Source: an uncultured Deferribacterales bacterium
GTDB lineage: Bacteria > Chrysiogenota > Deferribacteres > Deferribacterales > Mucispirillaceae
Direction: 5' to 3'
Length of the DNA: 33,934 nucleotides
Assembly: GCA_947853665.1 (NCBI GenBank)
Contig: CANTXF010000067.1
Coordinates: forward strand, 1 to 33,934
Shown here one piece after another: positions 11,183 to 14,155 of this stretch. The notes below the pieces were generated by a model. The model worked only from the letters and a program-made list of their open reading frames with translations, was not told the origin of the DNA and did no database searches. Both the position numbers and the translations under genes were made by a program. Within the stretch, counting starts at the first letter, position 1; each line of letters begins with the position of its first letter.

Positions 11183-11962
11183 ATGTATAACTTCGTATTC
11201 AATATCGGCGCGGCGATAATCAACATCGCCGGCTTTTTTGTGGGACACAGCAAGTTCTGCATAAAAGTCTGCGTGCGCGGAATACTGGGCTCCAGGTTTT
11301 CAAACCCGGCTGTCTTTATGGTAACCGTAAGGCAGATATATTTCGCAGGCGTCGAATTGTTTTACATAATGACTTTCACATCCCTGATCCTCGGCATGGC
11401 CCTTGTAGGCGGATTAAGCAAATCCCTGATACTGCTGGGCGCAAGAGATTCCATAGGAACAGTGCTGCTCGTGGTTATCATACGTTCTGCGGCCCCTCTC
11501 GTAACGGGGCTTCTGCTGGTTTTAAGAACGTCCACCGCCCTGCTTATGGAAGTGGGGCTTATGAAATACAACAGGGAGCTTATATCCCTTGAAGCTATGA
11601 ATATAGACCCTTACGCCTACGTTTATTTTCCCAGGGTGCTGGCAAGCATAATCTCAATGGTGGTGCTGGCGACTTATTTTTCAGTTCTTTCCATAATAGG
11701 CGGCTACACCCTTCTGAGCTTCCAGCTTGACACTACCTTAGACAGCATACTTAAACAGGTTATATACGAAGTAAGCCTGTCCGACGTGGGGAGCTTTCTG
11801 TTCAAAACGGTGCTTATAGGGTTTCTGATAGGCTCCATACCGATATATACGGCCCTCGAAGCCAAAGGCGCCCAGACTGATATAATAAAATCCTTCGTTT
11901 ACGGCATGATAAGGCTTTTTTTCGCCTTTATAATCGTAATGGTGCTGGGTGAATTTATATGA
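11183..11962 (+). CDS. mlaE: MlaE-type permease of a phospholipid ABC transporter
   Basis: A 259-residue inner-membrane protein of the MlaE/YrbE family, standard length. After an amphipathic N-terminus (VRQIYFAGVELFYIMTFTSL) it has several transmembrane helices and the family features: a GxxLV-like turn after the first helix, the PLVTGLLLVLRTSTALLMEV segment, an EAMNIDPYAYVYFPRVLA block, and a C-terminal hydrophobic helix. MlaE works with MlaF (ATPase) and MlaD (MCE) to move phospholipids between inner and outer membrane. A longer frame from TTG 11144 is open, but that codon is the -35 box; ATG 11183 is preferred. Its stop overlaps the next start as ATGA. Confidence 0.92.
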   Translation: MYNFVFNIGAAIINIAGFFVGHSKFCIKVCVRGILGSRFSNPAVFMVTVRQIYFAGVELFYIMTFTSLILGMALVGGLSKSLILLGARDSIGTVLLVVIIRSAAPLVTGLLLVLRTSTALLMEVGLMKYNRELISLEAMNIDPYAYVYFPRVLASIISMVVLATYFSVLSIIGGYTLLSFQLDTTLDSILKQVIYEVSLSDVGSFLFKTVLIGFLIGSIPIYTALEAKGAQTDIIKSFVYGMIRLFFAFIIVMVLGEFI

Positions 11963-12480
11963 AAGAAAAATATCTCGTCACGGTACCGAACAACCTTGCC
12001 GCCAACCGGCTTCAGGATAAAATATCCGCAGCCTACAAATGGAGCGAAGCTGCCATTGTGTCCTACAATCTGCCGCTGCTCTCCGCCCTTTCCGTGTGCG
12101 AGAACATAATGCTGCCCCTCAACTATTCCGAACGTATGACAAGACGGCAGGCGGAGCCCATAGTGGAAGGCCTTCTGCACAAATTCGGCATGGAACAGGC
12201 TTTACATTACAGGCAAAAAAGATTAAACGATTATGAAATACTTATAGTAAAATTTCTCAGGGCAATAATGAGATGCCCGGAGCGGGTGGTGTTCGTAATG
12301 CCTCACAACATGATACCCTCCGAAGACTACGCCAGCTTTACCGTATTCGCCGACGCGCTTACGGATTTTGAAATAACCGTCATCGAGCATGAAAACTTCG
12401 CTGGCGACTATCTGGAAACAAATTTCATGGAGACTTCACAGGAAAAATGGGAGACCCTCGTTTTAAAAACCTCGAAATAA
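11959..12480 (+). CDS. Degenerate MlaF-like ABC ATPase subunit lacking catalytic motifs
   Basis: A 173-residue protein in the position where mlaF normally lies, between mlaE and mlaD. The stretch LPLLSALSVCENIMLPL aligns with the segment after the Q-loop in MlaF-type ATPases (xALFxxLTVxENVxxPL), and FLRAIMRCPERVVFVMPHNM aligns with the ARAxxxxPxxxxFDEP Walker B region. There is no Walker A (GxxGxGKS), no LSGGQ (RLNDYEILIVKFLRA sits there), and the Walker B DEP is replaced by VMPH. It is also about 80 residues shorter than MlaF. It starts within the mlaE stop (ATGA) and ends 34 bases inside mlaD, so it is kept in the operon and is not obviously a pseudogene. It may be a structural, non-ATPase subunit with the true ATPase encoded elsewhere. 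Confidence 0.65.
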   Translation: MKEKYLVTVPNNLAANRLQDKISAAYKWSEAAIVSYNLPLLSALSVCENIMLPLNYSERMTRRQAEPIVEGLLHKFGMEQALHYRQKRLNDYEILIVKFLRAIMRCPERVVFVMPHNMIPSEDYASFTVFADALTDFEITVIEHENFAGDYLETNFMETSQEKWETLVLKTSK

Positions 12481-13463
12481 AAGTCGGCATATTCGTGCTT
12501 TTCGCCGTTGCCACACTTATCGCAGTAATAATAGGCGTGGGCATAAGCAGGGATATTTTCGTTAAAAAGATATACGTAAGCGTCTATACGGAAACGGGCG
12601 ACGACTTAAGCAAGGGTATGCCGGTAAAATACTCCGGCTTCGCCATCTCCCGGGTGGACAGCGTAAGCCTGCAGGACGACGGGCGGGTGGTAATGAGCAT
12701 AGGCATACCCACGAGATACGCCAAGTGGATACGGCAGGACTCCATATTTAAGCTGGGAGCCCAGAATATTATCGGCAGCAACTTCATATCCATACTTACC
12801 AACCTGCAGAGCGAATCGCCTGTGGTAACTAGCGGGGACCAGTTTATGCTTATAAGGGATCAGGGTCTCCAGGCCATAATAGACAAAGCCATGCCGGTGC
12901 TTGAAGATCTTAAGGAAATCGTTTCCAACGTAAATATAATCCTTGGCCGCGTGGCGGACGAAAACGGCGACGTAAGCAAGCTGCTGCGGGGCATGGGCGC
13001 GCTGGGCGAGGATATAAGCAACAAGGAAGGCTCTCTCGGTTTTCTCGCCCGCTCCGACTATGTGGAAAAAGAAATAATAAAATTTCTCGAAGACCTGCGC
13101 TCTTTCAGCGAAAAGGCCGTAAAAGTCGCGGAAAACGTAGAGGGCGGCAGCCTTACCCTTAACGACGCTTTAACTAAAATAGACGATAAATCGGAGCCGA
13201 TACTCTCAGGCACCCTGAACGCCGTGCAGGAAATAGAAGATATGGCGAGGATACTGAAACCATCCGTGGAGCGGCTCAACGAGATAACCCTCCAGCTTGA
13301 AAGGGCCTCCAAAAACGCCGCGGACGGCACGGAAAATCTGGACGCGTTAAGGGCGGAAGTACAGTCCATTGTGGAAACAGGCAACGAACTGCTGCTTAAA
13401 ATAGAAAACACGTGGCCTTTAAGCATAGGCAACAAAACTCCGAAACAGGTGCCGCTGCAATGA
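12447..13463 (+). CDS. mlaD: MlaD-type MCE domain protein, membrane-anchored substrate carrier
   Basis: A 338-residue protein. Residues about 11-31 form a single N-terminal anchor (VGIFVLFAVATLIAVIIGVG), followed by an MCE domain: KIYVSVYTETGDDLSKGMPVKYSGFAI-type strands near 40-70 and LGAQNIIGSNFISILTN near 105. Residues 140-320 are a long helical region with heptad-like spacing. MCE proteins form hexameric rings that conduct lipids across the periplasm. The RBS AGGA precedes ATG 12447, which overlaps the upstream frame by 34 bases. Its stop overlaps the start of the next lipoprotein (ATGA at 13460), supporting translational coupling. Confidence 0.93.
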   Translation: MGDPRFKNLEIKVGIFVLFAVATLIAVIIGVGISRDIFVKKIYVSVYTETGDDLSKGMPVKYSGFAISRVDSVSLQDDGRVVMSIGIPTRYAKWIRQDSIFKLGAQNIIGSNFISILTNLQSESPVVTSGDQFMLIRDQGLQAIIDKAMPVLEDLKEIVSNVNIILGRVADENGDVSKLLRGMGALGEDISNKEGSLGFLARSDYVEKEIIKFLEDLRSFSEKAVKVAENVEGGSLTLNDALTKIDDKSEPILSGTLNAVQEIEDMARILKPSVERLNEITLQLERASKNAADGTENLDALRAEVQSIVETGNELLLKIENTWPLSIGNKTPKQVPLQ

Positions 13464-14155
13464 CGAAATATAAACTTGCAGCCGCGGCGGTTTTAACGGC
13501 CCTTTTAGCCGCCTGCTCCTCAAAGCCGGAACCGAACGATATGAACGTGGGGCTTACGCTTACGAACAGAGCTGTAAATTACGAGCTTCAGGGAGACGTA
13601 AGCATGGCGGCCTATACATATAACAGGGCCTTGGCCAAATTCAGGGATATGGGCCGGTTCTGCGATATGTCCCGTGTTTCCCTGCTTATGTATACCGTGG
13701 AGCCGGGAGAGGAAAACGAAAGCAAGCTGGAAGATGCGGCGGCTTTCGCCGCGCTTGGTTCCTGCGCGGAAGAAACCAATATAATAAATTTTCTTAAAGG
13801 TAAGGATTACGATTATTCCTCCCTTCAGGAGCCTTACAAATCCGCGGCGAAATTCTGGCGGAATAAGGATACAGGCCCGCTTAAAAGCCTTGCGTCCTCC
13901 GGAAGCACAAGCGACGCGATAAGAAGCTCCGTTTACAGAATAATCGCCAGATACCTTCTGGAAAAGGAGCCGGAAGAAGCTATAAAATACGCGGAGGAAG
14001 CCAAAAAGACGGACGGCAGAAACGCGTGGACAAAAAACATACTGGCCGACGAAGAAATAATACTGGAAGCCTCCGGGAACCTCGGCCTTAACACCGATAC
14101 GATAGCGGAGCGCATAAATATACTGAAACAGGCCCTGGAGGAAAAAAGCAAATGA
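13460..14155 (+). CDS. Mla-operon lipoprotein with TPR-like helical repeats
   Basis: A 231-residue lipoprotein. The signal peptide LAAAAVLTALLAAC ends in lipobox LLAAC, then SSKPEPND. The mature part is helical with TPR-like phrases (NYELQGDVSMAAYTYNRALA; EEAIKYAEEAKKTDGRNAW). A GTG-started upstream extension is open but would bury the signal peptide, so ATG 13460 in the mlaD stop is chosen. Its place in the operon suggests an outer-membrane or periplasmic part of the lipid transport system, perhaps in place of MlaC or the MlaA-side proteins, but there is no sequence similarity to those that I can see. Confidence 0.7.
   Translation: MTKYKLAAAAVLTALLAACSSKPEPNDMNVGLTLTNRAVNYELQGDVSMAAYTYNRALAKFRDMGRFCDMSRVSLLMYTVEPGEENESKLEDAAAFAALGSCAEETNIINFLKGKDYDYSSLQEPYKSAAKFWRNKDTGPLKSLASSGSTSDAIRSSVYRIIARYLLEKEPEEAIKYAEEAKKTDGRNAWTKNILADEEIILEASGNLGLNTDTIAERINILKQALEEKSK

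Follow-up and report, generated by a model that had tools for sequence, protein, structure and literature searches.

The mlaE2 operon

The window analysed here, the whole stretch of 33,934 nucleotides, is one of the 68 contigs of a 2.43 Mb source genome that is 97% complete. It carries an operon with the gene order mlaE2-X-mlaD2-T-gene 5, in which neighbouring genes overlap at every junction (Table 1). The mlaE2 frame is open from 11144, and the ATG at 11183 was chosen to agree with the starts of its orthologues. The mlaE2 product passes PF02405 with 135.2 bits (cut-off 22.5) and the mlaD2 product passes PF02470 with 38 bits (cut-off 25.1). Gene X lies in the mlaF position, and the tight coupling claimed for it in a first-pass annotation, an ATGA junction with mlaE on its left and an overlap with mlaD on its right, was borne out, with mlaD2 starting 34 nt inside X. 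T is conserved beside mlaD2 in the phylum loci compared. Homologues of gene 5 adjoining T were detected in no loci but those of the family to which the window belongs, that of Mucispirillum and its kin.

Table 1. Features of the mlaE2 operon in the window
Feature	Position	Strand	Basis and remarks
mlaE2, divergent second MlaE permease	11183..11962	+	259 aa; PF02405 E 3.2e-39; orthologue starts; model pLDDT 72.1
Coupling-helix stretch MKYNRELISLEAMNIDPYAYVYFPR, mlaE2 codons 127-151	11561..11635	+	Alignment with canonical MlaE stretch; expected docking site of X
X, 173-aa pseudo-ATPase (very probable) at the mlaF position	11959..12480	+	ORF, orthologue profile, motif scoring, predicted fold, dN/dS
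ATGA shared by the mlaE2 stop and the X start (ATG)	11959..11962	+	Same in 38/38 phylum loci
X codons 38-58, post-Q-loop segment	12070..12132	+	Best-conserved part of X
ABC signature position in X	12223..12237	+	LNDYE in place of LSGG-
Walker B position in X	12283..12303	+	VVFVMPH in place of hhhhDEP
mlaD2, single MCE domain and long C-terminal part	12447..13463	+	PF02470 E 2e-9, residues 41-117
T, TPR-like lipoprotein, N-terminus MTKYKLAAAAVLTALLAAC	13460..14155	+	TPR_12 E 1.5e-5, under curated cut-off; ATGA overlap with mlaD2
Gene 5, lipoprotein-like, 299 aa	14152..15051	+	ATGA overlap with T

An ABC-type subunit and its missing ATP site

The ancestry of X was probed using a combination of sequence profiles and structure prediction. 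When X is searched alone, its similarity to ABC proteins reaches just E 2.1e-4 against NCBIfam and the best PDB chain in a sequence search has E 0.026, while a Pfam search of the single sequence gave no ABC match. The Pfam matches that were obtained (Mo25, Tospo_nucleocap and LRR_NXF) were scattered and under their cut-offs, and were set aside. A profile of 18 X orthologues reaches E 1.2e-9 with ABC ATPases of solved structure, positions 9-152 of the profile corresponding to MJ0796 64-212, and the match is collinear from ahead of the Q-loop to past the H-loop. An AlphaFold model of X built from 12 sequences (pLDDT 87.5, pTM 0.86) returned 391 PDB matches at E <= 0.001 in Foldseek, the best 50 of which are all ABC ATPases, and a VIA structural alignment of the model gave Z values of 16.3-14.6 among the 50 matches listed. 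Residues 1-162 of X superpose on residues 33-219 of E. coli MlaF with a Z of 16.0 and an rmsd of 2.7 over 159 aligned residues. The predicted fold is that of an ABC nucleotide-binding domain (NBD), with a RecA-like core and a helical subdomain. The orthologue profile and the fold rule out that X is an unrelated small protein, and the weak collinear ABC similarity remarked on in the first-pass annotation proves to be real.

The model retains the strand that precedes the P-loop, helix 1, the strand leading to the Q-loop, the helical subdomain, the signature helix, the Walker B strand and the H-loop strand. The P-loop itself, the first antiparallel strands (MlaF 1-32) and the C-terminal tail past MlaF 219 are missing. 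Because the losses at the P-loop and at both ends go with retention of these core elements, X is not a simple truncation. A full-length mlaF masked by a wrong start or a frameshift was also considered and rejected, as the stop-to-stop frame of several orthologues is just 174-181 codons and the start lies at the ATGA overlap in all 38. The NCBIfam equivalog model for MlaF, NF008809, is absent from the matches of X; this model is strict, because even the genome's own canonical MlaF (253.7 bits) is under its cut-off of 441.

Motif scoring indicates that the ATP site has been lost throughout the X family. Walker A (GxxxxGK[ST]), the LSGG signature and Walker B with its catalytic Glu (hhhhDE) each occur in 0/38 X orthologues, compared with 30/30, 29/30 and 30/30 of the canonical MlaF controls, respectively. 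Regular expressions for Walker A, GK[ST], LSGG, xSGG, hhhhDE and DEP all matched 0/38, and the loose pattern [GA]xxxxGK matched one orthologue by chance. Where canonical MlaF has GPSGTGKS, Q, LSGGM, DEP and H, X of the window has no P-loop, Y, LNDYE, VMP and H. These results agree with the absence of Walker A, LSGGQ and Walker B reported from the window sequence, and we consider it very probable that the MlaE2 system has in X a conserved subunit derived from an NBD and dead towards ATP.

It had been suggested that X could be the dead half of a lopsided heterodimer in which an intact ATPase forms the live half. ABC exporters offer examples of such pairs. The dead halves of known pairs, however, retain one of two complementary motifs, whereas neither Walker A nor LSGG is left in X; by this logic an X:MlaF pair would complete neither composite ATP site, which makes the heterodimer very improbable.

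X is found in 38 of 50 genomes of the phylum (Deferribacterota), across seven families (f1, the window's own family with Mucispirillum, and f2, f3, f6, f7, f8 and f9); Denitrovibrio and Seleniivibrio are named relatives in the same phylum. The 12 genomes without X comprise f4 (4), f5 (2), f10 (3), two of the three f3 genomes and one genome that is 57% complete. A second, low-scoring MlaE (35-170 bits) occurs in exactly the 38 genomes with X, where a canonical MlaE (>= 227 bits) accompanies it in every case, and each of the 30 canonical loci read holds a full mlaEFD with an intact MlaF. The source genome likewise has a canonical mlaE-mlaF-mlaD elsewhere. The order MlaE2, X, MlaD2, T is constant across all 38 phylum loci read, the E-X-D order being kept with no phylum relative having a full-length mlaF at the X position. 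The mlaE2/X junction is ATGA in 38/38 loci, compared with 5/30 canonical mlaE-mlaF junctions. Two full-length ABC ATPases from f5 (L097 and L098) that score on the X profile were rejected as intermediates, with no MlaE or MlaD detected adjoining them. In two f9 loci from 1.3 Mb genomes (L101 and L102), MlaE2 is very divergent (PF02405 35-39 bits), and X, MlaD2 and T are all present. Several other families (L103-L108, L111, L112 and L114-L117) have an ORF of 116-156 codons behind T.

The median dN/dS of X, calculated by Nei-Gojobori from the pairs with dS <2 only (35/36, 6/6 and 13/55), is 0.10, 0.16 and 0.11 in three groups. The medians are lower for MlaE2 (0.06-0.07) and MlaD2 (0.05-0.06), but those of X are still far below 1, indicating that X is under purifying selection. 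Conservation is uneven along the protein, as residues 38-58 average 2.98 bits versus 2.27 overall, a value reached by 0.6% of windows of equal length.

A decaying pseudogene would be suggested by the absence of the whole module from 12 of the 50 genomes and by the sole broken X of the 38 (L019, in the 99% complete genome G041), which has an in-frame TAG near codon 143 that is either a sequencing error or a fresh loss. The dN/dS medians, the invariant ATGA junction, the narrow length range of the other 37 copies (162-179 aa) and the occurrence of X in a second phylum as well as in seven families all contradict decay, and we give a pseudogene next to no chance. The first-pass interpretation was thus correct in part: the mlaF position of X, its ABC-derived origin, its lack of motifs and the argument against a pseudogene were upheld, while the heterodimer was not.

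The E2 clade of MlaE permeases

The X and MlaE2 profiles were each run against 384 genomes. Outside the phylum, the X profile picked two genomes (G280 and G142) in which a divergent MlaE overlaps, by GTGA, a 142-aa X-like protein. In this second phylum, MlaE2 is found in 20/28 genomes with a short X adjoining in 20/20, and Walker A is present in 0/20 of these X proteins. MlaD2 lies behind X in 8/20 loci within the stretches read, and T comes next in all 5 loci checked on longer stretches outside genus g112. Within g112 (L155-L166), mlaE2 is paired with an X of 141-142 aa and no mlaD2 or T was found adjoining; in this genus mlaD2 may lie elsewhere or have been lost.

The MlaE2 profile matched 30 genomes outside the phylum. 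Candidates were picked by this profile and not by the state of their ATPase; in 8 of the 30 genomes the MlaEs fell into the ordinary (E1) clade, and 22 (22/334 outside genomes) have an MlaE of the E2 clade. The partners in these 22 are ABC-like proteins at all stages of decay. Walker A is retained while the signature and the Walker B Glu are gone in G066, G213, G137, G219 and G199. Walker A is gone from proteins of 212-285 codons (trimmed frame) in G309, G172, G195, G324, G383, G189, G092, G055, G203, G187 and G334. X stands at the far end of this reductive series.

A maximum-likelihood tree of 82 MlaE rows separates ordinary MlaE from the E2 clade with support of 100/100. The rows include 8/30 canonical, 14/38 phylum E2 and 9/20 second-phylum E2 sequences plus the outside loci, following removal of duplicates (L249, L251, L252, L256, L257, L261 and L270). 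On the ordinary side, 36 of the 39 rows could be assigned an adjacent ATPase, and 36/36 have Walker A, Q, signature, DE and H, with SIG, SVG, SLS and SGC counted as intact signatures; the three E1 rows left out (L237, L259 and L263) have no adjacent ATPase in the stretch read, the frame considered for L259 being that of another protein. All 43 rows on the E2 side have an ABC-like neighbour, and this is degenerate in 42/43, with 34 lacking Walker A and 40 lacking the Walker B DE. Because many genomes have one MlaE on each side of the tree, a genome-wide artefact is ruled out as the cause of this difference.

Loss does not define the E2 clade as such, since one member has a complete ATP site and two have nearly complete ones. 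The complete site belongs to L235 (genome G278), whose ATPase has all five motifs and whose MlaE sits on the longest branch (2.45), so that its placement is unsure; this locus is the key to the ancestral state of the clade. L231 and L214 retain Walker A, Q and DE (3/5 motifs). L231 comes from a single-contig genome (G352) in which the only MlaE detected is of the E2 clade, and its ATPase has lost the glycine of the signature and the His of the H-loop. The base of the clade is an open fork, and the supported nodes give one clear separate loss of Walker A: L218, without Walker A, stands beside L231, which has it, with support of 100/99. At least one Walker A loss outside the two X phyla is therefore separate. 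By parsimony, the E2-clade ancestor would have borne an ATPase. The mlaE2-X pair of the window belongs to an entire clade of MlaE permeases, spread over several phyla, with degenerate or dead ATPases.

Probable docking, energy source and related systems

The MlaE2 model has the MlaE fold (6xbd_H, Z 21.4 over 245 aa). Its pLDDT of 72.1 is modest, and the four further models of MlaE2 had values of 50.8-60.4. The helix order is as in MlaE, with a helix at 119-138 between TM2 and TM3. The coupling-helix stretch of MlaE2 is retained and resembles that of MlaE1 in alignment; within MlaE2 it is not unusually conserved, as 14% of windows of equal length score as high. Residues 38-58 of X correspond to the face of an ABC transporter that receives the coupling helix of the permease. 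In the accessible text of PMC7790496, the MlaE coupling helix mediates the contact with MlaF, and its position matches the helix in the model. Given the conserved 38-58 segment together with the coupling-helix stretch, helix order and fold of MlaE2, X probably docks in the same manner as MlaF.

The following mechanism is proposed. X would be a shortened NBD that has no ATP site and that has retained the core fold and the surface that meets the permease. An X homodimer would sit beneath the MlaE2 dimer, hold the permease together and fix it in the nucleotide-free, MlaD-facing shape. Together with T, MlaE2-X-MlaD2 would then form an ATP-independent lipid conduit between the inner and the outer membrane, running next to the separate ATP-driven mlaEFD of the same cell. 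T may be its partner at the outer membrane, and the arrangement would resemble that of the ATPase-free PqiABC and LetAB. Flow would be set by lipid supply and demand and would probably be outward. Since Walker A and the signature are both gone and no pairing builds an ATP site, the complex should stay nucleotide-free, and the MlaE2 machine probably works without ATP. According to the available portion of PMC10212509, MlaE without nucleotide opens towards MlaD, and in E. coli-type complexes lipid passes from MlaD to MlaC without ATP while ATP hydrolysis stops the transfer; this spontaneous transfer in the nucleotide-free, MlaD-facing state suggests a passive conduit. A structural pseudo-ATPase under MlaE2 in a passive, supply-driven lipid conduit is the most likely of the readings considered, although taken whole it is evenly poised between right and wrong. 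Several points weigh on it. Some E2-clade members have a complete or nearly complete ATP site, and the coupling-helix stretch of MlaE2 is no conservation peak. The former P-loop strand and helix in the X model would have no obvious use were X only a lid, and a shared ATPase is always at hand, given the canonical MlaE in 38/38 genomes and an MlaF that is intact in all 30 of the canonical loci read.

The last point leads to an alternative in which MlaF from the canonical operon drives MlaE2, leaving X to act as an adaptor, to aid assembly or to regulate; an adaptor for an ATPase encoded elsewhere was also raised in the first-pass annotation. Several Mce systems are said to share a single ATPase, MceG. 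Among the best 30 of 50 ABC ATPases of the source genome there is one MlaF-like protein (471 bits, next 203), and the coupling-helix stretch is similar in MlaE2 and MlaE1. With its NBD fold and conserved permease-facing segment, however, X should occupy the very site that MlaF needs. Moreover, GGAEGVGKATT, conserved in the cytoplasmic TM4-TM5 loop of MlaE1, is gone from MlaE2, and other phyla show stepwise decay of the partner at the mlaF position rather than outright dropping. A shared motor is the main rival explanation, though an unlikely one.

The passive conduit also competes with an active complex that draws on an ion gradient, or on some unknown partner, and in which X gives structural support. 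ATPase-free MCE systems do exist, as the PqiA and LetA systems (PqiABC and LetAB) are described without an ATPase in the accessible text of PMC12436622, but MlaE2 has the MlaE fold and is no relative of PqiA or LetA, and another energy source is improbable. A further alternative is that X acts as a dominant-negative regulator, pairing with canonical MlaF or binding MlaE1 to lower the canonical system. In the part of PMC6365058 available, a Walker A mutant of Acinetobacter baumannii MlaF is dominant negative. In contrast to what such a role would suggest, X is tied to MlaE2 and not to MlaE1, occurring in the same 38/50 genomes and the same operon, and it aligns to MlaF 33-219 only, with the C-terminal tail missing; we regard this regulatory role as highly improbable.

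If the passive conduit is extended to the whole clade, an ancient MlaE lineage in at least three phyla would have repeatedly given up ATP, its subunit decaying in place from a full ATPase to a docking relic of 142-175 aa. The result would be a motor-less, passive lipid bridge beside, and perhaps opposite to, the ATP-driven Mla, and thus a candidate outward phospholipid route. This broader proposal is tentative and may well prove wrong. Searches of an open-licence full-text library, including ones for a dead or Walker-less MlaF, listed no description of this system, and MlaE permeases with degenerate or dead ATPases apparently constitute a wider, undescribed class. ABC transporters are defined by their ATPase; if the proposal is true, a clade that discards the whole ATP site but keeps the NBD fold, its gene position and its permease surface would show that an NBD can also serve purely as structure and that lipid bridges of the MCE type can do without ATP. 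Annotation pipelines that infer ATP-driven lipid import from mlaE-mlaD would be wrong for the E2 clade. Which way Mla transport runs and what powers it are matters of dispute, as stated in the excerpted text of PMC10212509, and genomes with live and dead systems side by side would make this dispute directly testable.

Compared with the MlaFEDB/MlaEFD systems of E. coli, A. baumannii, P. aeruginosa and Veillonella, the operon has the same combination of an MlaE-type permease, an MCE protein and an ABC-fold subunit at the mlaF position. It differs in that the ABC subunit is without Walker A, signature, Walker B, the region of MlaF 1-32 and the tail after 219, that a TPR-like lipoprotein follows mlaD, and that mlaE2 belongs to a clade of its own. 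Mycobacterial Mce1 likewise has a permease of the MlaE fold (8fed_I, Z 21.1 over 240 aa). The Mce1 ATPase is encoded apart from its operon and is live, and we know of no pseudo-ATPase in Mce1. The Brucella Mla-Pqi chimera, Mpc, is also similar, combining an MlaE-like permease with an MCE needle protein and an outer-membrane lipoprotein; its ATPase is homologous to MlaF according to the available part of PMC12436622, whereas the subunit described here is very probably dead. PqiABC and LetAB resemble the MlaE2 system as MCE systems whose inner-membrane part has no ATPase, and Pqi also has an outer-membrane lipoprotein (PMC12436622, in the text accessible). PqiA and LetA, however, are not MlaE, and PqiB and LetB contain several MCE domains, compared with the one in mlaD2, for which the Pfam search found no multiple MCE domains and a single MlaD match at residues 41-117. 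Finally, in contrast to PqiABC and LetAB, the MlaE2 system retains a relic of the ATPase.
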